Source: Bacillota bacterium
GTDB lineage: Bacteria; Bacillota; Clostridia; Lachnospirales; Bianqueaceae
Direction: 5' to 3'
NCBI GenBank assembly: GCA_017441925.1
Contig: JAFRUE010000002.1
Coordinates: 62,001 to 126,000 of the forward strand
Length of the DNA: 64,000 nt
Positions 1,727 through 22,289 of the stretch are shown piece after piece. The notes under the pieces are model-generated. The model saw only the letters and a list, made by a program, of their open reading frames with translations, was not told the DNA's origin and ran no database searches. Within the stretch, counting starts at the first letter, position 1. Each line of letters begins with the position of its first letter. The position numbers and the translations under genes were made by a program.

Positions 1727-2067
1727 GTTTGGCACGCTTTTTCTGCGGAATGAATGAGCGTTTCCACGGAGGAGCGTGCCAAACAGGGTGACGATGCCGA
1801 TCCCACTGCCTTCTCCGTTCAAATTGGCACGCTTTTTCTGCGGAATGAATGCGAATATCCACTGCGGAGCGTGCCAAAAATGGTTACGATACTGTTCCCA
1901 CTGCCTTCTCCGTTCAAATTGGCACGCTTTTTCTGCGGAATGAATGAGCGTTTCCACGGAGGAGCGTACCAAAAATGGTTACGATACTGTTCCCACTGCC
2001 TTCTCCATTCAAATTGGCACGCTTTTTCTACGGAATGGATGAGCGTTTCCACGGAGGAGCGTGCCAA
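1727..2067. repeat. 95-bp tandem repeat array with four palindromic elements
   Basis: Four copies of a 54-bp element begin at 1729, 1824, 1919 and 2014, exactly 95 bp apart. Each starts TTGGCACGCT and ends AGCGTGCCAA (copy 3 ends AGCGTACCAA). The 41-bp linkers between copies are also conserved (ending CTGCCTTCTCCGTTCAAA or with one change). In the first copy the ends pair perfectly over 12 bp (1727-1738 with 1773-1784). The interior of copies 1, 3 and 4 is nearly identical; copy 2 differs over its 3' half. Both strands read as repetitive open frames here, but these have no ribosome site or codon bias and are not proteins. The array lies between divergent genes. Confidence 0.92.
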
Positions 2068-2121
2068 TCAAACGAGCATAAACACTTTAATTCATTTAGA
2101 ATCAAATAAAACCCACAGTAT

Positions 2122-2150
2122 TTGCTCAAAAAGTTAACAAGCTGTATAAA
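2122..2150 (+). promoter_or_regulatory. Candidate promoter for the nuclease-like gene
   Basis: TTGCTC (2122-2127), 17 bases, TATAAA (2145-2150). It lies in the AT-rich 170-bp stretch between the repeat array and the TTG start at 2239 and would give a leader of about 80 bases. The rest of 2068-2238 shows nothing else. Confidence 0.45.
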
Positions 2151-2238
2151 ACCGGGCTTAATGTTTACTATTTGGAAAGTCAATACTGATTGAATCTGTG
2201 TTATTCTGAAAGCAAGATCAAAAACAGGAGGCATCGAT

Positions 2239-3150
2239 TTGCAAGTGTCTGAACAAGTATCTATCCTGAATGAAACGCAGCCGGATTATTCTTCCTATTT
2301 GCAGAAAAAGCCTGGTCCGGAGATTCTGCTGCAGGACATCCGGCACCTTTTGACAGATGCATTCGGCAGTGATGCAGACCTGCCGGCGCACCACGGATAT
2401 GAGATTTTCTGCCTCGAATATGAGCTCGGGACCTTCCCAGCCGGTTCTATTTCGCATAAAAAGCGCGGCAAATACGATTATTACTACTGGCAATTCCAAG
2501 TCGACGGCGTCCGCAAACAGCGCAAAATCAAAAATGATGACGTCCCCAGAGCTCTGGCATTCCACAGGCGCAAGCAGGAAGTCAAACGCCGTCTCCGCAC
2601 TCTGCGTGCCGAGCTTCGGGAATTTTCCGTTGAACAGCGCCGCGAAGAACACGCCATCCGCCGCCTGCTCCAACAGCTCTTCCCTTTCTGCCAGGCCGCT
2701 GTCCTGCAGAAATCCAACACCTACGCTGACGGATCGCCCCGTGATTCCAAGAACGAACTGATCCTTTCATTAATATACAAAATGCTCGGTCTCACTGCCG
2801 AGCCTTCACCCACGCACATCAGCTGCAGCGGCCGCCTCTACCGCCCTGATTATCTCGTCTCGCAGAAATACATTCATGAACACATGGGTATGCTTTACGA
2901 TCCGCAGTACTATAATAAACAGGTCGAAAAACTGCGTGATTATGCAGGCATCGGGCTCCGCGCCGGCCGGAATCTGCTCGTGACGACCGATGATTCCTAT
3001 AAGGACGGCGGCGACCACGATTTTCTTGTGATGCCTAAAATCATGCTGCAGATGGTACTCGGAGGCGCAGTCAAGGCCGACAGAATGCGCCGGCTGGTCC
3101 GGACTTTTCTGCCGGATCGCCGCCATAAGCCCGCTGCACGGAATTCTTGA
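2239..3150 (+). CDS. PD-(D/E)XK nuclease-like protein
   Basis: A 303-residue protein. Its C-terminal half carries the pattern of small PD-(D/E)XK-type nucleases of Clostridia: SKNE near 170, YRPDYLV near 209, YIHEHMGM near 221, then a Tyr/Lys-rich helix (YDPQYYNKQVEKLRDYAGIG) and a final strand NLLVTTDDSY. The Asp of RPD and the Glu of HEHMG are the likely metal ligands. The N-terminal half contains a basic, possibly coiled segment (residues about 95-145, rich in Arg and Lys). The start is TTG, chosen because AGGAGG lies 7 bases upstream and no ATG fits. The target is unknown; the gene lies immediately downstream of the palindromic repeat array. Confidence 0.65.
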   Translation: MQVSEQVSILNETQPDYSSYLQKKPGPEILLQDIRHLLTDAFGSDADLPAHHGYEIFCLEYELGTFPAGSISHKKRGKYDYYYWQFQVDGVRKQRKIKNDDVPRALAFHRRKQEVKRRLRTLRAELREFSVEQRREEHAIRRLLQQLFPFCQAAVLQKSNTYADGSPRDSKNELILSLIYKMLGLTAEPSPTHISCSGRLYRPDYLVSQKYIHEHMGMLYDPQYYNKQVEKLRDYAGIGLRAGRNLLVTTDDSYKDGGDHDFLVMPKIMLQMVLGGAVKADRMRRLVRTFLPDRRHKPAARNS

Positions 3151-3175
3151 CAAGCGGTCGTGTCTGGGTTATAGT
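3147..3175 (+). promoter_or_regulatory. Strong promoter of the 2-hydroxyacid dehydrogenase gene
   Basis: TTGACA (3147-3152), 17 bases, TATAGT (3170-3175). The -35 overlaps the stop codon of the upstream gene. Transcription should begin about at the ATG at 3182, which rules that ATG out and supports the start at 3209. Confidence 0.75.
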
Positions 3176-3208
3176 TGTCTTATGAATATACAGAAAGGGG
3201 ACACATCT

Positions 3209-4177
3209 ATGAACAAATGCAAAATCGTGATCGCGGTTCCTCTGGAACAGCGTCATCTCGATTATCTCGCGGAGAAAGCTTCTGACGGCAATTATACATG
3301 CGAATTCGTCGACGTTACAAAGCTCGACCCGGCTGGTGCCGAAGCCGCGGCGGCTGTCGCAGACGCGGATGTCATCATCGGCAATCTTCCTCTCCCGCGC
3401 GTTCAGAAAGCCGCTCATCTGAAATGGATGCAGCTTAATTCCGCCGGTGCCAATCCGTATGCGGATCCCGGTTCGCTGCCTTCCGCAGTGCAGCTCACCA
3501 ACGCAAGCGGCACATACGGTCTGACCGTTTCCGAGCACATGATCGCTCTGACTTTTGCACTGATCCGCCACATCGGCCCGTACCGCATCCAACAGGAGCA
3601 GCATCTTTGGAAAAAAATCGACCGCAACATCTCCGTTGAGGGCTCGACCATCGCGGTTCTCGGCATGGGCGACATCGGGACAGATTACGCCCGCAAGGTC
3701 AAAGCGATGGGCGCTTACGTCATCGGTGTACGCAAGCATCTGAAAGATAAACCGGAATACTTCGACGAGCAGTTTACGGTCGACGATCTGGACCGGGTCC
3801 TTCCCCGCGCGGACATCGTCGCAATGGTCCTGCCGGGGGCTGCGGACACCGCGCATCTTCTCGATGAACGCCGTCTGCGCCTCATGAAGCCCGGCAGCTA
3901 TCTGCTGAACGTCGGCCGCGGTTCCGCTATTGATCCTGCCGGCCTTAAAGCTGTCCTGGCTGAAGGCCTTCTGGGCGGTGTCGGTCTTGACGTAACCGAG
4001 CCGGAGCCGCTTCCGCCGAATGATTCACTGTGGGACGATCCCGCTGTCCTCATCACGCCGCACGCCGCCGGCGGTTTCTCTCTGCCGGAGACCCGCGAGC
4101 GTTTTGTACGCGTTGCCGGTGAAAACCTCTATGCTTTCACGCATAATGGCTCGCTGAAGAATCTCGTTGAGCACTGA
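3209..4177 (+). CDS. D-2-hydroxyacid dehydrogenase family protein
   Basis: An NAD-dependent D-isomer-specific 2-hydroxyacid dehydrogenase of 322 residues that reduces 2-keto acids to D-2-hydroxy acids or the reverse. The nucleotide-binding motif VLGMGDIGTDYARK is central, and the catalytic triad of the family is visible as Arg in NVGRGSAID, Glu in DVTEPEPLP and His in ITPHAAGG. The substrate (glyoxylate, pyruvate, phosphoglycerate or another) cannot be told from sequence. The start at 3209 follows AAAGGGGA and is forced by the promoter at 3147-3175. It is a single-gene unit followed by a strong hairpin. Confidence 0.88.
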   Translation: MNKCKIVIAVPLEQRHLDYLAEKASDGNYTCEFVDVTKLDPAGAEAAAAVADADVIIGNLPLPRVQKAAHLKWMQLNSAGANPYADPGSLPSAVQLTNASGTYGLTVSEHMIALTFALIRHIGPYRIQQEQHLWKKIDRNISVEGSTIAVLGMGDIGTDYARKVKAMGAYVIGVRKHLKDKPEYFDEQFTVDDLDRVLPRADIVAMVLPGAADTAHLLDERRLRLMKPGSYLLNVGRGSAIDPAGLKAVLAEGLLGGVGLDVTEPEPLPPNDSLWDDPAVLITPHAAGGFSLPETRERFVRVAGENLYAFTHNGSLKNLVEH

Positions 4178-4223
4178 TCCATCCCCGGCTGAATGCCGCA
4201 TCTGCCTCACTGGATTGACTTTA

Positions 4224-4262
4224 AAAAAGCCGGCCGGCTGCATACTGCAGCCGGCCGGTATT
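4224..4262. terminator. Bidirectional rho-independent terminator
   Basis: A perfect 13-bp stem (4230-4242 with 4246-4258, arms CCGGCCGGCTGCA) with a 3-base loop. A run of A on the left gives U6 for the minus strand; a weaker T-rich tail serves the plus strand. It sits between convergent genes. Confidence 0.9.
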
Positions 4263-4281
4263 TGTTATAAATAGTATTCGT

Positions 4282-5652
4282 TCACAGCTTTTTGCAGGCG
4301 AAATCGTTGTACACCACGCAGCCATCGTCAAACGTGAGCCTGATCATACCTTCTTTTCTTCCGAACTCGTTCTGTCCAATAGGATAAAGGCGGAATTCCA
4401 GCTCGTCATCATCGTCAACGGCCTTAGCGTACAGTTCGCCGTCTTTCATGTAAACTGTGTCAATGATGAAATCCGCGTCCTCGGGATGCTCATATTTGCC
4501 GCAGTAGTTCTCCCATTTCGACTTGTCCGGATTCATGATCGCGAGATCCTCGATGGAGACGAGGGGCTTGGGCTCCTTTCCTCTTACGATCGCTTCCATT
4601 CCATCCCAGTAGCCCAAATACGCTCTGGCGTCCCTGTAGTCCCGGCAGCTGAGTATCACAAGAACCCTGTCCGCGTCGATAAAACGCTCAAACCAGGTAG
4701 AGACGCCAGGCATGCCGCCGCTGTGGCTGACGACGAGCCCAAGCTCTTCGTCATGACCGACAGCCCATCCGAAACCGTAGCCAAGCTCATCGTCCTCGTC
4801 GTAAACAGCATCCTCGCCACTGTTTAGCTTCCCGGGGGTGTACATGAGTTCCTGTTCTTCCTTTGTCAGCACCTTGCCCTCACGCAGTGCCCTGTCCCAT
4901 TTAAACATGTCAAAGATGTTGGTATACACATAATCGTCGCCGTTCAGACCGTCAAAGGCGACCACGTCGCCTTCTTCTGTTGAGTCGATGTCAGCTACGC
5001 ATTTTCCATCATCATACACTGTCGCCTGAGCGTAATTTTCAAACGGAATGCCGTCTCTGCGTATATGGCAGCAGTGGGTAGAGTTCATGCCGGCGGGTCC
5101 AAAGATGTTCTTCTGCAGGAACTCTTCATAGGGAACACCGGAAAGCCGTTCCACCAGCAGCGCCAGCAGGTTGTAGCCGGTGTTGGAGTAATGCAGGCCT
5201 TCCCCCGGGGCGAAGTACGGTTTCGCCTTCGTTTCCTGGAGAAAGCGTAAAATCTCGTCATTACCGGGCACCCGTTTTTCTTCCTTCCAGATCTTGATGA
5301 ACCAGTCCGCGTCGTCAAAGTAATCGGGAATACCGCTTGTGTGGGTCAGCAGATGCCGGACCGTCACGCCCGGACATGGGATCTTCGGGAAAAACTTCGT
5401 GATCTCGTCCTCCGGACAGAGAAGTCCCTGCCGTATCAGCAGCATGACCGCTGCCGATGTGAACGTCTTGCTGACCGAGGCCAGCTGGAAGATCGAGTCC
5501 TCTGTGATCGGCAGCGTATCCACCGGGTCACGGAAGCCGAGAACACCCTTGGACACGATCTCGCCCTTTTCGGCGTAGAGCCAGGCCCCGTTGAAGCTGT
5601 CCTTTTTACTTAACTCACGGGCAAGGTTTTCCATCATCGCGTGTTTATCCAT
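4282..5652 (-). CDS. Serine hydrolase, beta-lactamase/DD-peptidase fold
   Basis: A 456-residue protein of the penicillin-binding-protein-like (class C beta-lactamase/EstB) superfamily. The active-site series is complete: SVSK at 59-62 (nucleophile and base), YSN at 155-157 and HSG at 310-312. No signal peptide or membrane segment is visible, so it is probably cytoplasmic and more likely an esterase or peptidase than a resistance enzyme. A C-terminal beta-rich domain of about 100 residues follows the catalytic fold. The start at 5652 has AAAGGAG upstream. It follows the GNAT-serine hydrolase gene by 15 bp and is probably cotranscribed with it. Confidence 0.85.
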   Translation of the reverse strand: MDKHAMMENLARELSKKDSFNGAWLYAEKGEIVSKGVLGFRDPVDTLPITEDSIFQLASVSKTFTSAAVMLLIRQGLLCPEDEITKFFPKIPCPGVTVRHLLTHTSGIPDYFDDADWFIKIWKEEKRVPGNDEILRFLQETKAKPYFAPGEGLHYSNTGYNLLALLVERLSGVPYEEFLQKNIFGPAGMNSTHCCHIRRDGIPFENYAQATVYDDGKCVADIDSTEEGDVVAFDGLNGDDYVYTNIFDMFKWDRALREGKVLTKEEQELMYTPGKLNSGEDAVYDEDDELGYGFGWAVGHDEELGLVVSHSGGMPGVSTWFERFIDADRVLVILSCRDYRDARAYLGYWDGMEAIVRGKEPKPLVSIEDLAIMNPDKSKWENYCGKYEHPEDADFIIDTVYMKDGELYAKAVDDDDELEFRLYPIGQNEFGRKEGMIRLTFDDGCVVYNDFACKKL

Positions 5653-5667
5653 AAAACCAGTTCTCCT

Positions 5668-7158
5668 TTATTCTTTCGCGTTTTTGTAAATCTCGCAGGC
5701 AATGTCGTTCATTGCTTCGTCGGCTGCTTCCGTGACGTTGTTGTACATTACGGCAACGCAGATGTCTTTCTTGCGGGAGAATACCCAGCTTGTCAGAAAG
5801 CCCCAGTTTTCCCCGGTATGGCCGACAACGCTGTCTTTGCGCGCTTTCGACTCCCAAACGTCGAGGCAGAGGCCGTAGTCATCCATGACGGGGGTCATCA
5901 TGCGCCGCGCGGTCTTCTTTTTGAGGAGACCGTCTTTGCGATAGCTCCTGGAAAGAGCAAGACCGATCTTGACAAGTTCTGTGGGCGTTGTCCACAGGCC
6001 GGCAGCGGCATGCTCGGGATAATAATGATACCCGTGAGCAGGGTCCTCCTTCTGCGCCAGCCTGAAACCGAACGCGGCGTTGTCAACAAGTTCTTCGTCA
6101 AGCGGCTGGAAAAAGCCGGTGCGCTTCAGCCCCAAAGGCTCGGCAACCTCCTTCTGGAAGGCCTCGCGGAGCGTAGTCCCCGTAATGCGTGTAAACGCAA
6201 GCTCAGCCAGAGTGATGCCGCCGCCGGAGTACATGAACTGCCTGCCGTAAGGGCGAATCCTTCTGAGCTTCGGTGTGACGCCCTTGCCATTCAGCACGTC
6301 CTCAAGCGAGAGAGGTTCGTGGTTTGCCGGATAGCCCGGGAATCCGTGCAGGTTGTAGCCTGCGGTGTGGGAAAGCAAGGCGGCGAATGTCACGGGGCCT
6401 TTTTTGACGAATTCCGGTACGACACCGGAGATATCCGCGTCAAGGTCGATGAGGCCCTTGTCCACATACCGGAGGAGGGTCAGCGCAAACATGGGTTTGC
6501 TGACGGAACCCGCCTGGAACAGCATATCCGGGTTCACCGGGAAGTCCTCGCCGTAGCGTCCGCTGCCGGCACAGTAGGTAAGGAAATCGCCTTCTCCGTC
6601 ATGAACGGCAATGCTGACGCCGTAGCCCTTCCTGCCCTTGATGCGCATGGCTTTATCCACATCGACGCCATAGGTATTTTTGATGATCCGGTTGGGGCCC
6701 TTGAGCATCCGCATCAGCACAGCCTCACCGCTGTCGATGATGCCGGTCTCCCGGAAGCCGGCCTTGTGATAGAGGTGTAGGCCCAGCTCGTTCTCCGGCT
6801 CGGTGGACAGGAAGAGCCTGTCGGCACCGTTTTCTTTGAAGTATCTGATGATCTCCTGCAGGGCGGCCTGGCCATAGCCCTTGCCCTGTTCGTTCTTGTC
6901 GATCATAAAACGCCAGATCCAGTAGCGGTCATCCTCGTCCTCGTCTTCAGGATCAAAGGCAAACATACAAAAGCCAACCAGCCTGTCATCTGCATAGATT
7001 GCGAACGGACGCGCAGTACCGGGCTGCTCCGCGTTAGCCTCATCCGCCTCACGCAGCGAAACATCATTCGGCGCAACAAAGGGCTGATCCTTGCGCACGG
7101 AAAGAGCCAGAACAGCTTCTCGATTATTATCATTTACAGGTTCAAGCTTAATTATCAT
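5668..7158 (-). CDS. GNAT acetyltransferase fused to a serine hydrolase (beta-lactamase fold)
   Basis: A two-domain protein of 496 residues. Residues 1-155 form a GNAT N-acetyltransferase domain with the acetyl-CoA motif EQGKGYGQAAL (90-100). Residues about 165-496 form a beta-lactamase-fold serine hydrolase with SVSK at 218-221, YSG at 310-312 (Gly replaces the usual Asn) and HTG at 447-449. No signal peptide is seen. The start at 7158 is chosen because GGAG lies 9 bases upstream; the frame stays open for 9 more codons, and those overlap a hairpin (7183-7218). The fusion suggests acylation and deacylation of related substrates, but no substrate can be named. Confidence 0.85.
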   Translation of the reverse strand: MIIKLEPVNDNNREAVLALSVRKDQPFVAPNDVSLREADEANAEQPGTARPFAIYADDRLVGFCMFAFDPEDEDEDDRYWIWRFMIDKNEQGKGYGQAALQEIIRYFKENGADRLFLSTEPENELGLHLYHKAGFRETGIIDSGEAVLMRMLKGPNRIIKNTYGVDVDKAMRIKGRKGYGVSIAVHDGEGDFLTYCAGSGRYGEDFPVNPDMLFQAGSVSKPMFALTLLRYVDKGLIDLDADISGVVPEFVKKGPVTFAALLSHTAGYNLHGFPGYPANHEPLSLEDVLNGKGVTPKLRRIRPYGRQFMYSGGGITLAELAFTRITGTTLREAFQKEVAEPLGLKRTGFFQPLDEELVDNAAFGFRLAQKEDPAHGYHYYPEHAAAGLWTTPTELVKIGLALSRSYRKDGLLKKKTARRMMTPVMDDYGLCLDVWESKARKDSVVGHTGENWGFLTSWVFSRKKDICVAVMYNNVTEAADEAMNDIACEIYKNAKE

Positions 7159-7182
7159 GATTCGTTTCTCCGTAATCATTAT

Positions 7183-7218
7183 CATAGCCGGAACTGATTC
7201 CTTCAGTCTCCGGCTATG
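7183..7218 (-). other. Long hairpin between two minus-strand genes
   Basis: On the minus strand a 10-bp arm CATAGCCGGA pairs with TCCGGCTATG, with a further 5-bp pairing (ACTGA/TCAGT) after a one-base bulge and a 5-base loop. No U-run follows, so it is not a normal terminator. It lies 14 bases after the stop of the Mor-like gene and 24 bases before the next start codon. It could protect the upstream message or dampen expression of the downstream gene. Confidence 0.6.
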
Positions 7219-7231
7219 TATCTGTCAATAT

Positions 7232-7564
7232 TTACTTTGTAGAAAATTCAGCATTATTACTTTTCAGAAAATCCGTATCCCTGTCACCGCCAGCTGCGGC
7301 GGCAAGCCTTTGGTTTCTCAGAATCCTTTGGATGCTCTTTCTGGATAAAGAAAAACGGCGGGATAGTTCTTCTTCGCTTATTCCTTCCTGCCAGGCCTGA
7401 AAGATTCTTTCGTTGCGTTCACGAAAGAACGCTTTTGCGGATGTTCCGCTTCCCCATTCCTGTTTTTCTTTCCGCGGGATATAGATAACCTTTCCGTCTG
7501 CATACTGCTGAACCGCTTCCAATAATTCCTTTGGCAGAATCTCATCTGCCCGGATATAGCTCAT
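7232..7564 (-). CDS. CD3324-type / Mor-like helix-turn-helix protein
   Basis: A 110-residue protein resembling small Mor-activator-like proteins of Clostridia (CD3324 type). It opens MSYIRADEILPKELLEAVQQ, then VIYIPRKEKQEWG, and ends with a helix-turn-helix: GISEEELSRRFSLSRKSIQRI. These small DNA-binding proteins are widespread but poorly characterised; a transcription-factor role is inferred from the HTH. The start at 7564 follows TAGGAGGAGC. Upstream there is a good promoter, a tiny open frame and an 11-bp inverted repeat that could be its own operator. Confidence 0.75.
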   Translation of the reverse strand: MSYIRADEILPKELLEAVQQYADGKVIYIPRKEKQEWGSGTSAKAFFRERNERIFQAWQEGISEEELSRRFSLSRKSIQRILRNQRLAAAAGGDRDTDFLKSNNAEFSTK

Positions 7565-7593
7565 ACGCTCCTCCTATCTTTTTCATAGGATTC

Positions 7594-7634
7594 GTCTGAG
7601 CTTACGATTCAATTGTATAGATTTAAGCTCAGAC
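7594..7634. promoter_or_regulatory. 11-bp inverted repeat, candidate operator
   Basis: GTCTGAGCTTA (7594-7604) and TAAGCTCAGAC (7624-7634) are perfect inverted copies separated by 19 bases. On the minus strand the loop contains TACAAT, a possible secondary -10. The position, 30-70 bases upstream of the Mor-like gene, fits autoregulation, or an mRNA hairpin in the transcript from the promoter at 7713-7741. Confidence 0.45.
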
Positions 7635-7663
7635 TACTGAGCGCTTACATACCTTCTGGTCAT
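7634..7663 (-). CDS. Possible 9-residue leader peptide
   Basis: A minimal open frame MTRRYVSAQ with GGAG 9 bases before its ATG. It lies in the transcript from the promoter at 7713-7741 and ends exactly where the 11-bp inverted repeat begins. Such an arrangement could couple translation to hairpin folding, but the frame is too short to support coding on its own. Confidence 0.25.
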   Translation of the reverse strand: MTRRYVSAQ

Positions 7664-7712
7664 AAAGTCATACTCCTTCCTTCATACATATTTGGACACA
7701 TAACCATAAAGT

Positions 7713-7741
7713 ATTATACCTTTCGGCACAGCCGATTACAA
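7713..7741 (-). promoter_or_regulatory. Promoter upstream of the Mor-like gene
   Basis: Minus strand TTGTAA (7736-7741), 17 bases, TATAAT (7713-7718). It gives an unusually long leader of about 140 bases containing the 9-codon frame and the inverted repeat. Confidence 0.65.
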
Positions 7742-7837
7742 CCTCATGATTTTTTATAAAGAAACTTGCGCCGAAAACGGTTATAATACCAAAACGCAGA
7801 CCCTGATCGGCATTTTTGTGAACAGAAAGGTCTCCGC

Positions 7838-9880: not shown

Positions 9881-9882
9881 AT

Positions 9883-10383
9883 TTATTTGCCGAAGCGGGC
9901 CCGCATCATCGGCTTGATCCCGCCTGCTTCCAGGATCTTCATGGCCTGGTCGCCGAGCTGCTCGCAAGGCAGGACTTCACCGGTCTCCTGCACGGTGACA
10001 GTGCCCGCCTCGAGATCAAGGGTCAGTGTCTGTCCGTTTTCCACATGCTGGCGGATCCCCTTGCAGATCACAGGCAACAGGCCAAGATTTACAGCGTTGC
10101 GGAAAAAGATCCGAGCAAAGGAATCTGCAAGTACGGCAGAAGCGCCCATGTTGAGCAGCGCGATCGGAGCGTGCTCCCGGCTGGAACCGCAGCCGAAATT
10201 GCGTCCGGCTACCACAATTCCGCCCTTGGGGAAATCCGCGGCGATCTTTTCATCGACGCCGCTCAGACAATGGCTGCCGATCTCTTTCGGATCCGTAAGC
10301 GCCAGGAACCGTCCCGGATAGATCTGATCCGTATCGATATTGTCGCCTACAACGATGATTTTTCCGGTTATGATCGTATTCAT
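9883..10383 (-). CDS. leuD: 3-isopropylmalate dehydratase small subunit (LeuD family)
   Basis: The 166-residue small (swivel-domain) subunit of a two-subunit aconitase-family hydro-lyase, partner of the gene at 10397-11659. Visible family motifs are DNIDTDQIYPGRFL near the N-terminus and NFGCGSSREHAP in the substrate loop. In leucine synthesis the enzyme interconverts 2- and 3-isopropylmalate. The DTDQIYPGRF loop differs from the DTDVIIPARYL typical of LeuD, and leuA and leuB are not adjacent, so another malate-like substrate is possible. AAAGGAGG precedes the ATG at 10383. Confidence 0.85.
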   Translation of the reverse strand: MNTIITGKIIVVGDNIDTDQIYPGRFLALTDPKEIGSHCLSGVDEKIAADFPKGGIVVAGRNFGCGSSREHAPIALLNMGASAVLADSFARIFFRNAVNLGLLPVICKGIRQHVENGQTLTLDLEAGTVTVQETGEVLPCEQLGDQAMKILEAGGIKPMMRARFGK

Positions 10384-10396
10384 ATTGCTTCCTCCT

Positions 10397-11659: not shown

Positions 11660-11754
11660 AGACCCCTCTCCTTCTGACATTTATGCATTTTGAAAAAGAA
11701 TCATCAATCCGGATTCAGCATAACATATCCGCCGGTAAATGGAAAGACTTTTTC

Positions 11755-11783
11755 TTCATTTTCAGGCTTCCTTATGGTATAAT
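11755..11783 (+). promoter_or_regulatory. Promoter of the aminotransferase/alpha-galactosidase operon
   Basis: Extended -10 TGGTATAAT (TATAAT at 11778-11783) with a weak -35 TTCATT (11755-11760) at 17 bases. It lies about 60 bases before the start codon and is divergent from leuC. Confidence 0.65.
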
Positions 11784-11845
11784 CAGACTATCAGGTCCCT
11801 ATGTGTGCAGTGTGCGGGGACAGAAAAGACAGGAGGAAACAGACA

Positions 11846-13015: not shown

Positions 13016-13064
13016 GTCCTGAACGGCATTTCCTGCAGAAATACTATCACTTGAGGAGGATTCC

Positions 13065-15332: not shown

Positions 15333-15344
15333 CCGCACTTTGAC

Positions 15345-15376
15345 CCGCGCAGCTTGTGGCTGCGCGGTCTTTTTAT
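15345..15376 (+). terminator. Terminator after alpha-galactosidase
   Basis: A 9-bp perfect stem CCGCGCAGC/GCTGCGCGG (15345-15353, 15359-15367), 5-base loop, then TCTTTTTA. Confidence 0.88.
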
Positions 15377-15423
15377 GCCTGTGCTGCAGCGGGTTCTGTC
15401 CCTTTTGTTTCCTTCCGCCTAAG

Positions 15424-15560
15424 TTTGGCACGCTTTCCTTCTCTTTTCGGCATGAATACCAACCTGGAAGCGTACCAATTTCTGAGAGGGATACTTCATC
15501 CCGCTTTTTGGCACGCTTTCCTAATGATTTGGACAGGAAAAAACACAGTGAGCGTGCCAA
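15424..15560. repeat. Two palindromic elements of the TTGGCACGC family
   Basis: Element 5 (15425-15478) begins TTGGCACGCT and ends AGCGTACCAA; element 6 (15508-15560) begins TTGGCACGCT and ends AGCGTGCCAA. Their interiors differ from each other and from the array at 1727-2067, though both start TTTCC and contain a GGAA able to pair with it (TTTCCT/AGGAAA in element 6). They lie between the two terminators of convergent genes, so they are probably not strongly transcribed. The remaining bases of the 354-bp gap 15333-15686 hold only the terminators. Confidence 0.85.
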
Positions 15561-15612
15561 ATTGGAGTTGCAGTCGAAGCTGAAGCCGGGATGCTGCAGC
15601 TTCGAACGCAAA

Positions 15613-15667
15613 CAAAAAAATCCTGGACCCTGCGCCGCATGCCTGCGGGATTCAAAGGGGTTCAGGA
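15613..15667 (-). terminator. Terminator after the kduD-like gene
   Basis: Minus strand stem TCCTG.ACCC with GGGT.CAGGA (one mismatch), an inner CCGCA/TGCGG hairpin, then a run of seven T. Confidence 0.75.
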
Positions 15668-15686
15668 CTCTTTATTCCTGCAAAGA

Positions 15687-16454
15687 TCAGCGTACCAGAT
15701 ATCCGCCGTCGACCGGGATCACCGCACCGTCCAGATAATCGGACGCGTGAGAAGCAAGGAAGATCACCGGGCCTTTCATGTCATTGCCCGTGCCCCAGCG
15801 GTGCGCCGGAATCCGATCGGTGATCGTCTTGAACCGCGGATTCGCCGGATCTGTAAGTGCCGTATTCATGTCTGTGTCCATATATCCCGGCGCGAGGCAG
15901 TTCACATGAATGCCTTTACCTGCGAACTCGTTCGCCATGCCCTTGCTGAACTGCGCGACGCCGCCTTTGGACGCCGCATAGGCCGGGACGGTAAATCCGC
16001 CGAAAAACGACAGCATCGACGCGATATTGATGATCTTGCCGTATGGCTCGTCTTTTTTCAGGAACTCCCGTGCCGCCATCTGGCTGAGTTCAAAAGGAGC
16101 TGTCAGATTGACCTCGATCACATCATCCCAGTCCTCGATCGGGAACTGCTCCGCCGGATGCCTGCGCTGGATCCCCGCGGCGTTAACCAGAATATCCAGC
16201 CCGCCGAGCAGCCGCACCGCTTCTTCGAAACCGGCCTCCCGCTCAGCGCGGACCGCCAGATCGACTTTCAGCCCATGACAGTCAAAACCTCGCGCACGAA
16301 ATTCTGCGGCGACCTCAGCCACATGTTCATTCGACCCAAAGATCACGACAGAAGCTCCGGCCTCCATCAGTCCTTCCGCCATACCGTGTCCCAGCCCACG
16401 CGTCCCGCCGGTCACGATCGCTTTCCAGCCGCGGATATCAAATAAATCTGTCAC
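15687..16454 (-). CDS. kduD: SDR oxidoreductase, KduD-like (2-dehydro-3-deoxy-D-gluconate 5-dehydrogenase)
   Basis: A 255-residue short-chain dehydrogenase matching KduD, which interconverts 2,5-diketo-3-deoxygluconate and 2-keto-3-deoxygluconate in pectin and uronate catabolism. Motifs: NAD site GGTRGLGHG, NAAGIQRRHPAEQF and DWDDVIEVNLT typical of KduD, catalytic Ser in NIASMLS, YAASK, and the ending PVDGGYLVR. The start is GTG at 16454; its site GGGAGGTGA overlaps the stop of the pectinesterase gene 6 bp upstream, so the two are cotranscribed. Alternative substrates such as gluconate 5-dehydrogenase chemistry are possible; the pectinesterase neighbour favours KduD. Confidence 0.85.
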   Translation of the reverse strand: MTDLFDIRGWKAIVTGGTRGLGHGMAEGLMEAGASVVIFGSNEHVAEVAAEFRARGFDCHGLKVDLAVRAEREAGFEEAVRLLGGLDILVNAAGIQRRHPAEQFPIEDWDDVIEVNLTAPFELSQMAAREFLKKDEPYGKIINIASMLSFFGGFTVPAYAASKGGVAQFSKGMANEFAGKGIHVNCLAPGYMDTDMNTALTDPANPRFKTITDRIPAHRWGTGNDMKGPVIFLASHASDYLDGAVIPVDGGYLVR

Positions 16455-16460
16455 GACCTG

Positions 16461-17423
16461 TCACCTCCCGCAGTCCCAGCCGAGCACACGCTCATTGGTC
16501 AATGCAGCCGCTTCTTCAGCCGTCAGCAGGGGACGTTTTGCCGAAACCGCAGCGCCGGGCCCGAAGCTCCCGTATTCGCCGAATCTCGCGTTCCTCCCCA
16601 GGAACCCGCCCATATCCGTCCATCCGTCCTTATGAATATGCGCGCCGAGCTCGCATTCGATATAATACGCGCTTCCGACGGCAAAAGGATCAGAGCCCGC
16701 GTGCCACGGCCGACCCAGATAAACGGTCTGCTCCGGGCAATCAGAAACGAGCCGGCAGTGACGGAAAACAAATCCGAATTTCTGCGCCAGATACGTACTC
16801 GGGGCCGCCACATATCCCTGGACCGCGCCCGGTTCTCTTCTGGAATGGACCAGCGAACGGATCTCGCAGGACTCGAAGACCGTCCTCGCCGCGCCGAAAA
16901 TAAAGTCGACATCACCTTCGATATAGCATTTTTCATAAAGCTGACTCCCGTCCCTGACATAGAGCGTATCCTGTTTGCCCAGGAACCGGCAGTTCGTAAA
17001 TACAAGCCGCTCTCCGGACGCATAAAGCGCGAGCGCCTGACGGCCGCCTTCCGCGCCGGAAACTCCGTCGTAAGAGTTGCGGAACGTCAGATTGCATGCT
17101 CCGCAGTCATTCGCGTAGATGCTGACGGTGGCACTGCGGAAAGTCCCCGTCATATCGCCGTTTTCACGTTTGCGGCCGGCGTAATTGTCATAGGAAATGA
17201 CCGTGTCCTCGGCCTTATCTCCCGTCCCGATCAGCGTGATATAAGGCTTGGTGCCCGGGATACGGACAGCTTCTGTATATACGCCGGGATCGAGCTTCAG
17301 CATGACCGGTGTCGTATTATCTTCAGGGATCGCGTCGACAGCTTCCTGGACCGTCCGGTAATCCCTGTCTTTTCCCACATAGATGACTGCGGTCTGAGGC
17401 AGTTCTCTTGTTGTATTATCCAT
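16461..17423 (-). CDS. Pectinesterase (carbohydrate esterase family 8), intracellular
   Basis: A 320-residue pectin methylesterase that removes methyl groups from galacturonate polymers or oligomers. The right-handed beta-helix motifs are present: QDTLYVRDG, DVDFIFGAA with catalytic aspartates, QGYVAAPS and YLGRPWH. No signal peptide is present, which suggests action on imported methylated oligogalacturonides. The start at 17423 has AGGAGG upstream; the open frame continues 53 codons further but crosses the promoter at 17461-17489 and is not protein. It is the first gene of a two-gene operon with kduD. Confidence 0.9.
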   Translation of the reverse strand: MDNTTRELPQTAVIYVGKDRDYRTVQEAVDAIPEDNTTPVMLKLDPGVYTEAVRIPGTKPYITLIGTGDKAEDTVISYDNYAGRKRENGDMTGTFRSATVSIYANDCGACNLTFRNSYDGVSGAEGGRQALALYASGERLVFTNCRFLGKQDTLYVRDGSQLYEKCYIEGDVDFIFGAARTVFESCEIRSLVHSRREPGAVQGYVAAPSTYLAQKFGFVFRHCRLVSDCPEQTVYLGRPWHAGSDPFAVGSAYYIECELGAHIHKDGWTDMGGFLGRNARFGEYGSFGPGAAVSAKRPLLTAEEAAALTNERVLGWDCGR

Positions 17424-17460
17424 GTTTTTCCCTCCTGTACAGCAAACGATTGTTAAGGAT

Positions 17461-17489
17461 ATTTTAACTGTCTGCGTCGGATTTGTCAA
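17461..17489 (-). promoter_or_regulatory. Promoter of the pectinesterase-kduD operon
   Basis: Minus strand TTGACA (17484-17489), 17 bases, TAAAAT (17461-17466). It is divergent from the promoter at 17515-17543. Confidence 0.75.
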
Positions 17490-17514
17490 ATTTGCAAAAC
17501 CAGGGTAAAAGACC

Positions 17515-17543
17515 TTGTTTTGACTGACTTCATACGCTATAAT
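17515..17543 (+). promoter_or_regulatory. Promoter of the plus-strand series starting at 17581
   Basis: TTGTTT (17515-17520), 17 bases, TATAAT (17538-17543); the start codon follows 37 bases later with AAGGAGGT between. Confidence 0.7.
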
Positions 17544-17580
17544 ATAGATGTAAAAATATACCATAAGGAGGTCATGCTTC

Positions 17581-17898
17581 ATGGATCAGATAGATAAACT
17601 CAAAAACGCGCTGGCTCCCGCCGACCGTAAGAAACTGCTGTGGATCCTGCTCGGCGTTGCGATCACGCTGGCTGCGGCTGCTGTGATCATCGCGCTTCTT
17701 AAGAAGAAAAAGAAAAAGGACGAGTGGGACGAAGAAGAAGACGAAGACAGCTGGGACGATCTGGATGACGAAGACGCTGACGACGTAGACGACAGCGATG
17801 ATGACGATGAAGACGAAGATGAAGCTACGGACTCCGGTTCCGCTCCTGAATCCGAACCTTCACAGGAACCGGATGGCACCGAGCACGCTGCCGACTGA
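17581..17898 (+). CDS. Small single-pass membrane protein with acidic tail
   Basis: A 105-residue protein of unknown function. Residues 1-17 are hydrophilic, about 18-41 form one transmembrane helix (LLWILLGVAITLAAAAVIIA), then a block of six lysines (stop-transfer, positive-inside) and a tail of about 55 residues made largely of Asp and Glu, ending in a Ser/Pro/Glu segment. The Lys block predicts a cytoplasmic acidic tail. AAGGAGGT precedes the start. It is followed by the RlmD-type methyltransferase gene after 15 bp. An electrostatic interaction role is speculation. Confidence 0.75.
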   Translation: MDQIDKLKNALAPADRKKLLWILLGVAITLAAAAVIIALLKKKKKKDEWDEEEDEDSWDDLDDEDADDVDDSDDDDEDEDEATDSGSAPESEPSQEPDGTEHAAD

Positions 17899-17913
17899 TA
17901 TACAGGCGATTCA

Positions 17914-19392
17914 ATGAAAAAAGAACCTGTCGTCTGGGACGGACTCACGGTTTCGGTCGCATTTCCCAACAAAGGGCTCGTAGTACCGGTGTGCACAGAA
18001 ACTCCCAAAGAGCCGCTGCCCACCGGTTTTTCATCGGCTGAGCAATCTGCCGCCGGCGAGGACGCGCCGTCTGTTGTGTCCAGATCAGCTGCCGGCGCGG
18101 AGCCTGCTGCGCTGCAGAGTGCCGCTCGTCCCGTCCATGTCAAGGACGTTCTGCCGGGACAGATTGTACGGATCTATCAGACCCCGCACATGGTCAAACG
18201 CAAGGAAGGGACACTCCGCGAGATCATCCGGCCGGCTCCATATGAGATCCCTTCACTCTGCCCTCACGCAGGTGTCTGTGGTGGCTGCGCCTATCAGACT
18301 GTCCCATATGAGAAACAGCTCGAATGGAAGAGACAGACAGTGACAGATCTTTTCCACGGTGAATATGATCTGCCGCCGGTGATCCCTTCGCCGGACCCGA
18401 TAGGCTACCGGAACAAGATGGAGTTTTCCTTCGGGGATGAATACAAAGACGGCCCTCTGACGCTCGGTCTTCACAAGCGGAGTGCCTACCACGACATCGT
18501 ACCGATAGACGGCTGTCAGATCGTTCCGGAGGATTTCATACCGATCGTTGCCGCTGTACAGGATTATTTCCGCGAGACCGGGGCCGGCTACTACAATACA
18601 AGGAGCCACACAGGTTTCTTGCGGCATCTCGTCCTGCGGCACAGCCGTACCGAAGGCAAGACGATGGTCAATCTGGTTACCTCTTCGCAGGGACGGTTTG
18701 ACGCAGAGGGTTTTGTCCGCCGGCTTCTGGACCTGCCCTTGCGGGGACAGATCTCCGGCATCCTTCATACCTGCAATGATTCGCAGGCCGACGTTGTACA
18801 GGCCGATTCCGTGCGGATCCTCTACGGTGTGTCGGATCTTAACGAATCTCTGCTCGGTCTGAGCTTCACCCTCTCTCCGTTCTCGTTCTTCCAGACCAAT
18901 ACGCGCGGTGCCGAAGCGCTCTACAGCGCGGTTCTGGACATGGCCGGCAACGTTGCCGGGAAAACGGTCTTCGACCTGTACTGCGGAACCGGTACGATCA
19001 GCCAGATCTTTGCTCACGCAGGCGCCCGCAAGGTGTACGGCATCGAGCTGGTCCCCGAGGCTGTTGATGCTGCCAGACAGAACGCGCTGAATAACGGGCT
19101 GGACAATTGCGAATTCTATGCAGGCGACGTTCTGAAGCTCGTCCCGACGATGCCGGACAGGCCGGACCTCATCATTCTGGATCCGCCTCGCGACGGAGTC
19201 CATCCGAAAGCGCTGCCTGAAATCCTGGCTTTTGCGCCGCGGCAGTTCCTGTATATTTCCTGCAAACCGACCTCGCTCGTCCGTGACCTGCCCTTCTTCC
19301 TGGATGCAGGATATAAGGTCACCGGAATGCAGTGTGTCGACATGTTCCCGGGTACACCGGGAATCGAAACGATCGCGAAACTGGATCGCTGA
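17914..19392 (+). CDS. rlmD: 23S rRNA (uracil-5-)-methyltransferase, RlmD/RumA family
   Basis: A SAM-dependent RNA uridine C5 methyltransferase of 492 residues in the TrmA/RlmD/RlmCD family. Iron-sulfur cysteines are at 116, 122 and 125 (CPHAGVCGGC), with a fourth in the DGC at about 194. SAM motif FDLYCGTGTIS, DPPRDG and the catalytic Cys in ISCKP are intact. The usual N-terminal TRAM domain is interrupted or replaced by an Ala/Ser/Glu-rich stretch at about 30-72. The ATG at 17914 has only a weak site, so translation is probably coupled to the preceding gene. RlmCD or a tRNA target cannot be excluded. Confidence 0.85.
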   Translation: MKKEPVVWDGLTVSVAFPNKGLVVPVCTETPKEPLPTGFSSAEQSAAGEDAPSVVSRSAAGAEPAALQSAARPVHVKDVLPGQIVRIYQTPHMVKRKEGTLREIIRPAPYEIPSLCPHAGVCGGCAYQTVPYEKQLEWKRQTVTDLFHGEYDLPPVIPSPDPIGYRNKMEFSFGDEYKDGPLTLGLHKRSAYHDIVPIDGCQIVPEDFIPIVAAVQDYFRETGAGYYNTRSHTGFLRHLVLRHSRTEGKTMVNLVTSSQGRFDAEGFVRRLLDLPLRGQISGILHTCNDSQADVVQADSVRILYGVSDLNESLLGLSFTLSPFSFFQTNTRGAEALYSAVLDMAGNVAGKTVFDLYCGTGTISQIFAHAGARKVYGIELVPEAVDAARQNALNNGLDNCEFYAGDVLKLVPTMPDRPDLIILDPPRDGVHPKALPEILAFAPRQFLYISCKPTSLVRDLPFFLDAGYKVTGMQCVDMFPGTPGIETIAKLDR

Positions 19393-19416
19393 CAGTATCG
19401 GAAGGAGATACCGCCT

Positions 19417-20037
19417 ATGAACAAACAGACAATGTACAAGCTGACATACGGACTCTTTGTCCTGACCGCTCATGAGGGCGGCAAGGATAACGGCTGTATC
19501 ATCAATACCGCGGGGCAGGTCACTTCTGCCCCGAATCAGATCTCAATCGCTGTGAACAAGAGCAACTACACCCACGATATGATCCTGCGGACAGGGGTTT
19601 TCAACATCTCGGTCATCTCGGAAGACGCGGATTTTGAGCTGTTTAAGCAGTTCGGATTCCAGAGCGGCAGGGACACTGACAAGTTCAGGAATTACCGGGA
19701 TACGATGATTGCACCGAACGGTGTCCTGTACATCACAAAAGGGACAAATGCGTGGATCAGCACGTCCGTAACACAGACCGTCGATCTGGGGACACATACG
19801 CTCTTTATCGCGGCGGTAACGGATATGAATGTTCTGTCCGACGTTCCGTCCGTGACATATACGTATTATCAGGATCACATCAAACCCAAACCGCAGGCGG
19901 CCGCAAAGCCGGCAGGCAAGCCCGCCTGGCGCTGCAGGATCTGCGGATACATCTATGAAGGCGAAACCCTGCCGGACGATTTTGTCTGTCCGCTATGCAA
20001 ACATCCGGCTGATGATTTTGAAAAAATCTATATTTAA
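19417..20037 (+). CDS. Flavin reductase-rubredoxin fusion (high-molecular-weight rubredoxin)
   Basis: A 206-residue protein joining an N-terminal FMN-binding flavin reductase domain (residues 1-155) to a C-terminal rubredoxin (about 168-206) through a Lys/Pro/Ala linker. The rubredoxin iron ligands are CRICGY and [11 protein letters not shown]. In anaerobes such proteins (Hrb type) move electrons from NAD(P)H to flavodiiron proteins and other oxygen or peroxide reductases. GGAAGGAG lies before the ATG. Thioredoxin and thioredoxin reductase genes follow directly, which makes an oxidative-stress electron-transfer module likely. Confidence 0.92.
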
Positions 20038-20056
20038 TCAGGAAAGGAAAACTATC

Positions 20057-20368
20057 ATGGCAGAAATCACATTAACAACAGAAAACTTTAAGGCAGAAGT
20101 ACTTGAGTCCGATAAGCCCGTTCTGGTCGACTTCTGGGCAGTATGGTGCGGCCCCTGCCGCATGCTTGCTCCCGCGGTCGCCGAGATCGCCGAGGAGTAT
20201 GCCGATACGATCAAAGTCGGCAAAGTCAACGTCGACGAGGAGCCCGATCTGGCCGCTATGTTCCAGATCAGCAGCATCCCGACCCTGATCTTTTTCAAGG
20301 ACGGGCAGCCGGTCAAGAAATCTCTCGGCGTCATCCCGAAGGCGCAGATCCGTGCTCTGATCTCATGA
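20057..20368 (+). CDS. trxA: Thioredoxin
   Basis: A 103-residue thioredoxin with the canonical active site WCGPC, VDFWA before it and the cis-proline loop SSIPTLIFF. It reduces disulfides in the cytoplasm. The start at 20057 follows AGGAAAGGAAAA; the open frame upstream overlaps the preceding gene. Its stop overlaps the start of the reductase gene by 4 bp (ATGA), so the two proteins should be made together, and the encoded reductase is the natural partner. Confidence 0.95.
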
Positions 20369-21321
20369 GCGGCTCGAACGAATTCAACGACCGTTACGAC
20401 GTAGCGGTCATCGGTACCGGTCCGGGAGGCGTTTCCGCAGCGATCACGGCCAAGATCCGCAACAAAAGCGTGCTGCTGCTCGGCAGTCCCGACCTGACCG
20501 GAAAGCTGGTCAAAGGCCATAAGATCCTAAATTATCCGGGACTTCCGGAAGTTACCGGCGACGCGCTTGCCGATGCCCTGAAAAAGCATCTGGATTCTCT
20601 TGATATTGCCGTCACGGAGGACCGGATCGCGTCCGTACTTGCTATGGACGATTATTTCATGCTGCTCGGAAGCAAGAACGACATTCCTTACGAAGCCACT
20701 TCGCTCATTATCGCGAGCGGTGTCGTCGCGGATAAACCGATCCCCGGCGAAGTCGAGAATCTGGGCAATCACGTCAGCTACTGCGCAACCTGTGACGCGA
20801 TGCTGTACCGCGGCAAGCCGGTCGTGGTCGTCGGATACAATCCCAAGGAAGAAGAGGAAGCTGTATTCCTCGCGGGCGTCTGCTCGGAAGTTCTGTATTT
20901 CCCGCAGTATAAGGCGCCTACACGCTGGGAAGACGGTTCTGCCGACGCCGCGGCAGGCGCTGCAGTCATCAGGGTCGTACGGGAAAAGGCCGCCTCCATC
21001 GCGCCGGATCCCGCTGCTACCCTCATGAATCCCGCTATTATCCTGACGACTTCTGAAGGCAATGCCTACACGTCGGCCTGCATTTTCGTACTGCGCGAAT
21101 CGATCGCGCCGGGACAGCTTGTTCCGGGGCTTGAGACCGAAGGTGCTCATATCCGGGTCGATATGCAGATGCAGACGAATCTGCCCGGATGCTACGCGTG
21201 CGGAGATATCACCGGTACACCGTATCAGTATATCAAGGCCGCAGGACAGGGAAATGTCGCTGCCCTTTCAGCTTCTTCCTATGTCGATCGGGTCCGCACG
21301 GCTAAGGAAACTGCAAAATGA
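20365..21321 (+). CDS. Thioredoxin reductase-like flavoprotein, without NADPH motifs
   Basis: A 318-residue FAD disulfide reductase of the thioredoxin-reductase fold. The FAD site [10 protein letters not shown] (17-26), the redox pair CATC (140-143) and the second FAD motif ACGDITG are intact. In the pyridine-nucleotide domain the expected GGGxSA is replaced by [18 protein letters not shown], and the usual HRRxxxR is absent ([14 protein letters not shown] stands there). That pattern resembles ferredoxin-dependent thioredoxin reductases (FFTR) known from Clostridium and not NADPH-dependent TrxB. The ATG overlaps the trxA stop; its own stop overlaps the next start, so all three genes form one operon. 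Confidence 0.85.
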
Positions 21322-22133
21322 GACTCGGCATCAATTATAATCCGAAGCATGATTCACCGGCTCAGTGGGCAGAGATGCTGGCTGCCGAAGACTTCCGCGC
21401 GGCATCTTTTCCCGTCGGATACAAGACGCCTGTCCACATCATCGACCGCTATCTGGCTGAGGCAAAGGCTCATGACATTCTGATCGCGGAAGTCGGGATC
21501 TGGAACTCGCCTTTCGCACCGGATCCGGAAGTCCGCGCCCGTTCGCGGGAGGATGCGCTGGAGAAACTGCGCCTCGCCGAATACGTGAAAGCGCGCTGCT
21601 GTGTCAACGTGTCCGGTTCTGTCGGTGAGAACTGGGCATGGTGCTATCCCGGAAATTATGATGAAAAGCTGTATGCGGAGAATGTGGAATGGATCCGTTA
21701 TCTTCTCGATACGGTAAAGCCCATACAAACGACATACGCATTGGAACCGATGCAGTGGATGATCCCTGATTCGCCGGAACAGTACGCGCAGTTCCTTAAG
21801 GATGTGGACCGGCCGGGATTTGCAGTGCATCTGGATTACATCAATTTCATCAATTCCGCGTATGAATACACGCATCAGGAAGAACTGCTGGATCGCTGTT
21901 TCCGGCTGCTTGGACCTCATATCATCAGCTGCCACATCAAGGACCTGGCACAGCAGCATGTCAACACCGTCATGCTGCAGGAAGTCCCGATCGGGACAGG
22001 TTCCGCACATCTTGCGAGCTACCTGCGCCATATCAGCACGCTGGATCCCGATATGCCCGTCCTGATCGAGCATCTGCGCGAATTCGAAGCTTTCTGCGAT
22101 GCGATCCGTTATCTGCGGACCCTGGAATACTGA
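21318..22133 (+). CDS. TIM-barrel sugar phosphate isomerase/epimerase family protein
   Basis: A 271-residue AP-endonuclease-2-like TIM-barrel protein (the IolE/IolI/Xyl-isomerase-like family). Metal-ligand positions appear as Glu in ALEPMQW, Asp and His in VHLDYINF, His in ISCHIKDL and Glu in VLIEHLREFE. Such proteins isomerise or epimerise sugars and inositol derivatives; the substrate is unknown. The start overlaps the thioredoxin reductase stop by 4 bp, an unexpected tie to a redox operon. A bidirectional terminator follows immediately. Confidence 0.8.
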   Translation: MRLGINYNPKHDSPAQWAEMLAAEDFRAASFPVGYKTPVHIIDRYLAEAKAHDILIAEVGIWNSPFAPDPEVRARSREDALEKLRLAEYVKARCCVNVSGSVGENWAWCYPGNYDEKLYAENVEWIRYLLDTVKPIQTTYALEPMQWMIPDSPEQYAQFLKDVDRPGFAVHLDYINFINSAYEYTHQEELLDRCFRLLGPHIISCHIKDLAQQHVNTVMLQEVPIGTGSAHLASYLRHISTLDPDMPVLIEHLREFEAFCDAIRYLRTLEY

Positions 22134-22139
22134 AATCAC

Positions 22140-22193
22140 AAAAAACCTCTAGGACCATGGCGCCTACATGCCGCCGATTCTGGAGGTTTTTTA
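22140..22193. terminator. Bidirectional terminator between convergent genes
   Basis: AAAAAACCTC pairs with GAGGTTTTTT around an inner imperfect stem (GGCG/CGCC). A-run and T-run on both sides allow action on both strands. Confidence 0.85.
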
Positions 22194-22220
22194 TTATGCA
22201 AAAATGGGCTGCTGCGTCTA

Positions 22221-22278
22221 AATTGGCACGCTCCGCGCAAGGATTCTTCCTCGAGTTCCCGCGAAAAGCGTGCCAATT
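22221..22278. repeat. Palindromic element 7 of the TTGGCACGC family
   Basis: Begins AATTGGCACGCT and ends AGCGTGCCAATT; with the next base each side (A at 22220... T at 22279) the arms pair over 13 bp. The interior is unrelated to copies 1-6 but has its own CGCG/CGCG pair. It lies 12 bases past the mutY stop and upstream of the terminator, so on the minus strand it is transcribed in the mutY 3' end. Confidence 0.85.
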
Positions 22279-22289
22279 TATGTTTTTAA

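Follow-up and report, generated by a model that had tools for sequence, protein, structure and literature searches.

Palindromic arrays beside genes of a nuclease-fold protein family: a candidate two-part module in Clostridia-like bacteria

The window, a stretch of 64,000 nucleotides from a Bianqueaceae genome (Bacillota; assembly GCA_017441925.1, 2.7 Mb; contig JAFRUE010000002.1, here C8:62001-126000), carries seven short palindromic elements and, next to four of them, a gene (2239-3150, plus strand) for a 303-amino-acid protein with a predicted nuclease fold. The seven palindromes are one case of a widespread two-part module of Clostridia-like bacteria that is apparently undescribed. The elements are very probably the cognate double-stranded DNA sites of the protein, judging from sequence comparison. 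On balance we also favour the reading that gene and elements form a module like that of the repetitive extragenic palindromic (REP) sequences, or REPINs, and their REP-associated tyrosine transposases (RAYTs), built here on an unrelated nuclease-fold protein that would bind, probably cut and spread its own palindromes. The system was not found described in the open-access literature that we searched, which left subscription journals mostly outside the search.

The palindromic elements and their setting

The elements follow the formula TTGGCACGCT-N33/34-AGCGTRCCAA. A pattern search of the window returned seven copies, at the very positions marked in the initial annotation, where shuffled sequences lead one to expect none. 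Six are 54 bp long and one is 53 bp. All start with TTGGCACG and finish with CGTRCCAA, while the adjacent flanks vary; the right arm is a perfect AGCGTGCCAA in five and AGCGTACCAA in the other two, at 1919 and 15425. Four elements (1729-1782, 1824-1877, 1919-1972 and 2014-2067; all seven are read on the plus strand) form a tandem array with steps of 95 bp, between a flavin-reductase-like gene (1033-1575, minus strand) and the gene for the 303-amino-acid protein. The units of this array are near copies of one another, so tandem duplication acts. The fifth element (15425-15478) and the 53-bp sixth (15508-15560), 83 bp past it, have convergent GH36 and SDR genes on either side. The solitary seventh (22223-22276) is flanked by convergent AP_endonuc_2-like and HhH-GPD/NUDIX genes, so that convergent genes enclose two of the window's three sites.

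In the whole assembly we found nine elements, all within one 36-kb stretch (C8:48581-84276) and none outside it. The two additional ones, at C8:48581 and C8:48675, lie about 13 kb to the left of the window. Of the 17 occurrences of the exact 10-mer TTGGCACGCT in the genome, 16 belong to the nine elements. The constant ends, constant length and changing centres noticed earlier held up: mean pairwise identity was 0.98 in the ends and 0.50 in the centres (0.37 among five of the eight 54-bp elements). Two further families gave 0.93 and 1.00 for the ends, and 0.34 and 0.40 for the centres. Terminal inverted repeats of one size class are also a feature of miniature inverted-repeat transposable elements. 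In the flanks of the nine elements, which were inspected without a systematic duplication test, no transposition event or target duplication was seen.

The initial annotation had also proposed that bases inside and outside the core pair and change together, and this was mostly unsupported by pairing counts over the nine elements. The outer base pair adjoining the core was present in four of them, and two or more consecutive outer pairs in two (two pairs at 1729, four at 22223). Inner Watson-Crick pairing in the window family was not above the between-element expectation; it was higher when G-U pairs were allowed, a count for which no control was computed. For the TGTCAG elements, a family that is found beside paralogs of the gene in the same genome, inner pairing was above chance only for about 4 bp beside the arm (107 of 5000 shuffles reached the observed value) and not deeper. 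No consistent extension of pairing into centres or flanks was found. The initial annotation had held that few added copies or a lack of covariation would speak against a family; by this rule the narrow family of the window, with only two further copies genome-wide, looks weak. The discovery stands at the level of a superfamily, whose ends vary from gene to gene, and this is invisible from the window alone. As a candidate explanation, a marker of the replication origin or terminus was rejected: of the 32 10-kb bins of C8, 31 had a negative GC skew, and its sign did not change across the 36-kb region.

Exact copies of the elements were found in 2 of 58 genomes searched, namely the genome of the window, itself among the 58, and G002, a sister species of the same genus. 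An exact-pattern search of GTDB representative contigs gave 13 stretches. One (L007) is the sister genome, with two sites; the remaining 12, from other lineages (one a Eubacteriales metagenome-assembled genome), have one site apiece and are read as chance matches. In G002, orthologs of the flavin-reductase-like gene and of the 303-amino-acid gene flank two elements, and the latter proteins are 84% identical over 289 residues. The site at 15.4 kb is occupied in G002 too, where contig C237 starts inside an array beside the SDR gene. This array has at least five elements, the first truncated at the contig edge; their ends are TTGGCACGCT and TGCGTGCCAA, with TGCGTACCAA once. Copy numbers at the syntenic sites are thus four versus two and two versus at least five; the centres differ and the ends are kept. 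Empty orthologous sites, which the initial annotation had suggested looking for, yielded no clean case for the window family: the 15.4-kb site is filled in G002, and none of the G002 contigs spans the 22.2-kb site or the one at C8:48.6 kb. Clean presence and absence was seen only for a TGTCAG paralog: an element lying within a stretch of about 130 bp in G000, the genome paired with G002 in the TGTCAG comparisons, is absent from G002. Between orthologous TGTCAG units of these two genomes, whole elements have been gained or lost.

Association of family genes with phased palindromes

Members of the same gene family in other places adjoin palindromes of their own. The association was examined at 82 loci (60 listed homologs and 22 earlier loci), hand-picked for spread and contig position; they contain orthologs and close paralogs and so are not 82 independent events. 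A tolerant test called recurrent inverted repeats of 34-70 bp with 9-bp arms, in a proximal zone (up to 1 kb from the gene) and a distal zone (1.5-2.5 kb). Two or more were found proximally at 48 of the 82 loci, distally at 2 of 82, and at none in shuffles (two per locus, 81 of 82 loci). For four or more, the counts were 27 proximal, 2 distal and 0 in shuffles. At L158, one of the distal positives, the repeat is also found in the proximal flank of that locus. With exact 8-mers, 19 of 60 loci were positive proximally and 2 of 60 distally. The arrays lay only upstream of the gene at 19 of the 48 loci, only downstream at 22 and on both sides at 7.

Strict de novo repeat finding detected recurrent palindromes at 11 of 20 paralog loci, with ends unlike those of the window: TTTATACGC/GCGTATAAA (G005), GTATACAGA/TCTGTATAC, TTTCTACGC/GCGTAGAAA and GCAACCGCT (G001). 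The strict test found none in 12 control segments of C8, one of which holds a TGTCAG paralog that was missed, so this test is insensitive. When TGTCAG elements of 44-52 bp were allowed, 24 of 30 matches in the window's own genome were 46-48 bp long, and the reversed control pattern gave 2 matches. In G005 there were 64 TTATACGCA elements, of 51-52 bp among those listed, versus 0 for the controls.

Across the 48 positive loci, 46 distinct 9-mer arms were called. Protein identity correlated with arm similarity (Mantel r 0.41, reached in 0 of 5000 permutations). These comparisons indicate that paralogs have different ends, unless they are closely related, in which case the ends are alike. No other recurring neighbour was found: of the open reading frames up to 3 kb away, none has relatives at more than 4 other loci of 81.

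The spacing of neighbouring elements was regular. Centre-to-centre distances clustered at 52-53, 63, 72-75, 83-84, 95, 104 and 124 bp, with others at 60, 80, 86-87 and 128 bp. For the median spacings that a script took from each of 32 loci, the phasing statistic R was 0.60 at 10.5 bp, the top of six periods. A second set used one hand-chosen spacing for each arm family (n = 31, including some two-copy families). When periods from 6 to 20 bp were scanned, the best was again 10.5 bp (R 0.68, mean phase 0.17 bp), and 0 of 20,000 jittered sets reached the observed R. Without the class at about 52 bp, R was 0.62 (n = 19, p about 7e-4). The window family is in phase, with spacings of 94-95 and 83 bp, and G002 has spacings of 84 bp and, in its second array, of 104 and 105 bp. 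Because spacings fall on multiples of 10.5 bp, the sites are taken to act as double-stranded DNA. They appear to be used in the B form, with neighbours on one face of the helix, and this is the strongest mechanistic clue.

Units of gene and array have multiplied within genomes, and species differ in their number of elements. One subfamily is present in six copies in G005 and another in four. These copies have a sharp left boundary in common, and with it the gene, a terminator-like hairpin and an array; their flanks are unrelated. In the window's own genome the TGTCAG paralogs are adjoined by palindromes of 47-48 bp, on both sides at four of seven loci inspected (L089, L090, L125, L126). Of the 24 TGTCAG elements of 46-48 bp, 12 are more than 1 kb from any of the family genes listed for this genome.

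Several further observations concern these units. A 48-bp TGTCAG element (L125:3898-3950; in G002, L194, reverse strand, near 1505) has a TATAAT-like sequence inside its centre that is kept in two species. This element, upstream of a neighbouring gene that we take to be mnmA-like, may carry or control a promoter. In the TTATACGCA arrays of G005 (L075-L083), a motif like GGGGACGGAGA recurs between elements, and TCCGTCCC is found at the left boundaries of the units. This motif may be an end or target sequence, and it resembles the CGTC tag of some REPs. On contig C42 of G005, an array at 16352-17671 has at least 12 TTATACGCA elements, and no family gene was among the matches listed for that contig. 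Contigs C52, C9 and C41 of G005, C50 of G001 and C114 of G009 terminate in or beside gene-array units; arrays therefore probably interrupt short-read assemblies and lead to copy counts that are too low.

A protein family with a putative nuclease domain

The gene at 2239-3150, with a TTG start as listed, is unannotated, and its product had no Pfam or NCBIfam match. Its predicted layout is a three-stranded sheet (about residues 70-96), helices and a conserved C-terminal domain like those of PD-(D/E)xK/EDxHD nucleases. In an alignment of 38 members, S170, E173, D204, E214, H215, G217, Y224 and Y235 were invariant. The acidic triad E173, D204 and E214 was kept in all 38 and in 49 of 49 domain sequences, which had been selected by a motif that excluded 2 of 54 candidates. 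A looser motif, D-x(n)-E-H-x-[GS], was present in all 82 sampled proteins. We read the family as carrying a PD-(D/E)xK/EDxHD-type nuclease domain with E-H-x-G replacing E-x-K. The N-terminal sheet is our guess for a DNA-binding domain; in the Foldseek search with the model of the window protein, an integrase arm-binding domain came only at rank 49 (E-value 1.9).

The AlphaFold2 models had a mean confidence score (pLDDT) of 82 for the window protein and 87 for the nuclease domain alone. The domain model matched the catalytic domain of I-Bth0305I (Z 9.2, root-mean-square deviation 2.8, 90 residues; Foldseek E-value 0.006), Bax1 (Z 8.0), Vsr (Z 7.5) and TnsA (Z 6.3). The best PDB match of the family profile was T7 endonuclease I (E-value 0.011), where the first conserved acid and the last acid align in register, as does the PDF motif; this match is weak and partial and is a lead only. 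In PADLOC, all 38 members matched the PDC-S68 candidate-defence proteins (best E-value 1.4e-33). The window protein did so with an E-value of 1.2e-8, its residues 163-258 aligning with the C-terminal positions 1103-1206 of 1221. The PADLOC model HEAT_CxxC_PDDEXK was matched by 11 of the 38. A Pfam scan of the 38 members (E-value 0.1) listed 25 families, none of them Y1/HUH. The protein is therefore not a RAYT.

A single-sequence search found homologs in 15 of 19 genomes of the taxonomic family, with up to 25 matches in one genome (G005). By profile search, 48 of 246 genomes of the order matched, 41 of them in two families. In a draw of 398 genomes from the phylum, 17 matched. Five of these, of the same order as the window, hold full-length members; the other 12 matches are partial only and fall inside profile positions 83-253 of 265. 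Of eight proteins with partial matches that were scanned, seven are superfamily 1 (SF1; UvrD/RecD-like) helicases and one had no Pfam match. The ratio of nonsynonymous to synonymous substitution rates was 0.05-0.16 in all seven family pairs tested (one with near-saturated synonymous change), so the proteins are maintained; an eighth pair, of the flavin reductase, gave 0.09. The window protein had no match in 50,697 phage records. In a plasmid collection, a family member of G005 matched a single Vibrio fluvialis plasmid ATPase, with 32% of its length covered.

Elsewhere in the window, near uvrC, a small Mor-family/CD3324-family protein (7232-7564) is weakly similar to helix-turn-helix domains of the Cbp1 type, which bind CRISPR repeats.

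Proposed mechanism, rival explanations and comparison with known systems

We propose that a dimer or higher oligomer of the protein would bind both arms of one site, perhaps through its N-terminal beta-sheet domain, and that the oligomer could also join neighbouring sites on the same helix face. The putative nuclease domain would then nick or cut at or near the palindrome, possibly once this has been extruded into a cruciform, after which recombination or repair would enlarge arrays and seed nearby copies. The module would thus consist of a gene and the non-autonomous repeats that it recognises. Whether the nuclease acts on the palindromes and drives their multiplication is, in our estimate, evenly balanced. 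The fullest version is tentative and, we think, somewhat less probable than its negation: a stand-alone EDxHD/PD-(D/E)xK nuclease, oligomeric on phased cognate palindromes, that cuts these, perhaps in cruciform shape, and thereby makes the palindromes and its own gene more numerous, with dozens of end specificities co-existing in one bacterial order. The initial annotation had offered three explanations. Its protein-bound paired site is now strongly supported by sequence, through phased spacing, constant length and ends that are kept while centres drift. Its mobile short element gains from a repeat family tied to a multiplying gene and from copies gained and lost between species; no transposition event was seen. 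Its structured RNA is disfavoured for the reasons given below.

Several results weigh against a mobile module driven by a nuclease. The window family itself has nine copies confined to 36 kb, without spread through the genome. At 34 of the 82 loci the script found no recurrent palindrome, and degenerate ones are visible by eye at some of these loci (L089, L126, L127). The Mantel signal came mostly from pairs above 50% protein identity, with none below 35%; close relatives may have inherited their ends from a common ancestor. Off-phase spacings occur as well, such as 101 bp in the second array of G002 and 60, 80 and 86-87 bp in other places. In the domain, the usual lysine of PD-(D/E)xK enzymes is out of place, with E-H-x-G for E-x-K, and it could be a catalytically altered binder. 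PD-(D/E)xK variants without the catalytic lysine are known. A mitoribosome protein of T. gondii ranked second by Z (8.1), and Foldseek alone gave no match at an E-value of 0.001 or below, its best rows being nucleases and unrelated rows lying lower. Finally, the copies of the protein are old, and purifying selection acts on them, a pattern that is also compatible with a host function.

The strongest rival gives the protein a regulatory or architectural role as a DNA binder, and a role in defence comes second among the rivals. According to the former, the protein would be a sequence-specific DNA binder with a retired or structural nuclease fold, and the arrays would be operators or nucleoprotein-organising sites, without mobility. 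Autoregulation, local chromosome organisation or a partition-like complex are its possible functions. Helical phasing, purifying selection and the persistence of sites at orthologous places in two species speak for such a role, as does the 48-bp element with a TATAAT-like sequence upstream of a neighbour gene in G000 and G002, and it is also favoured by the arrays upstream only (19), downstream only (22) or on both sides (7) at the 48 loci. However, the invariant E, D and E-H residues in all 38 members argue that chemistry has been kept, the multiplied units of G005 and the dispersed TGTCAG copies exceed what an operator needs, and convergent genes surround two of the three sites in the window. 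We regard this role as unlikely, though to be taken seriously. A defence or addiction module, in which the nuclease would be harmful or would target foreign DNA, with arrays that titrate it or mark self DNA, is distinctly improbable. The homology of the nuclease domain to the C-terminal end of PDC-S68 in all 38 members, the fusion of this domain to SF1 helicases elsewhere in the phylum, and the multicopy, patchy occurrence (48 of 246 genomes of the order) speak for it. The window protein, however, matches PDC-S68 in the nuclease domain only, and a common domain does not mean a common system; there is no recurring partner gene, and the phage records gave no match. Because of the PDC-S68 matches, defence was weighted up and the regulatory and RNA explanations were weighted down.

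Hairpins acting at the RNA level, in untranslated regions, are very improbable. The arms can pair, and on the plus strand pairing is frequent directly inside the window arms when G-U is admitted, again with no control computed. The 10.5-bp phasing between elements, the restriction of covariation to about 4 bp and the lack of any Rfam match at the gathering score in window positions 1-24000 are at odds with this explanation, and divergent and convergent spacers alike hold elements, without a consistent strand relation to the genes. Chance, an assembly artefact or ordinary local tandem duplication is hardly credible as the whole explanation. Near-copy units within one array do reflect tandem duplication, but none of the elements is expected by chance, independent arrays share ends and not centres, and the ends are kept in a second assembly.

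The module that we favour resembles the REP/REPIN-RAYT system in its short extragenic palindromes near a cognate gene (48 of 82 loci, against 2 of 82 distally), in the occurrence of clusters and, in the TGTCAG family, of apparently dispersed copies, and in a repeat type tied to the gene. RAYT genes are flanked by repeats, according to two reports (PMC3116915, PMC3733652). The differences are in the protein and in the repeats: RAYTs are HUH tyrosine transposases, whereas the proteins here have a PD-(D/E)xK/EDxHD-type fold with no HUH match, and RAYT repeats are hairpins of 20-40 bp with GTAG/CGTC tags, whereas most elements here measure about 34-57 bp and have long centres that vary, and their arrays are helically phased. 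The window elements lack the GTAG or CGTC end tag. Rpn nucleases, another nuclease family with a link to DNA mobilisation (PMC5350276, PMC10327210), were also considered for comparison.

Among nucleases, the EDxHD/Vsr-like homing endonuclease I-Bth0305I is by Z the closest solved fold of the catalytic domain, ahead of the mitoribosome protein, and here, too, the gene multiplies. Homing endonucleases recognise the allele that lacks their gene, whereas here many presumed target palindromes adjoin the gene itself. T7 endonuclease I and Holliday-junction resolvases act on cruciform-like DNA, a likeness limited by the weakness of the profile match and by the N-terminal domain and sequence-specific palindromes found here. 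PDC-S68 proteins share a homologous nuclease domain but are candidate-defence proteins of about 1200 amino acids, while the window protein stands alone and has no full-length match to them. CRISPR arrays, too, are regular series of partly palindromic repeats next to a nuclease gene. This candidate was rejected: centres within an array are near copies rather than unique spacers, the intervals repeat as well, and no cas-like Pfam match was found in 30 genes scanned around the elements.

If the favoured reading is true, a symbiosis of palindromic repeats and an enzyme, as in REPIN/RAYT, arose a second time, on an unrelated nuclease fold. The module would then account for many unannotated palindrome arrays and for some of the assembly gaps in these genomes. 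It would also supply dozens of natural pairs of protein and half-site from which a DNA-recognition code could be read, and how such repeats spread would become directly testable.

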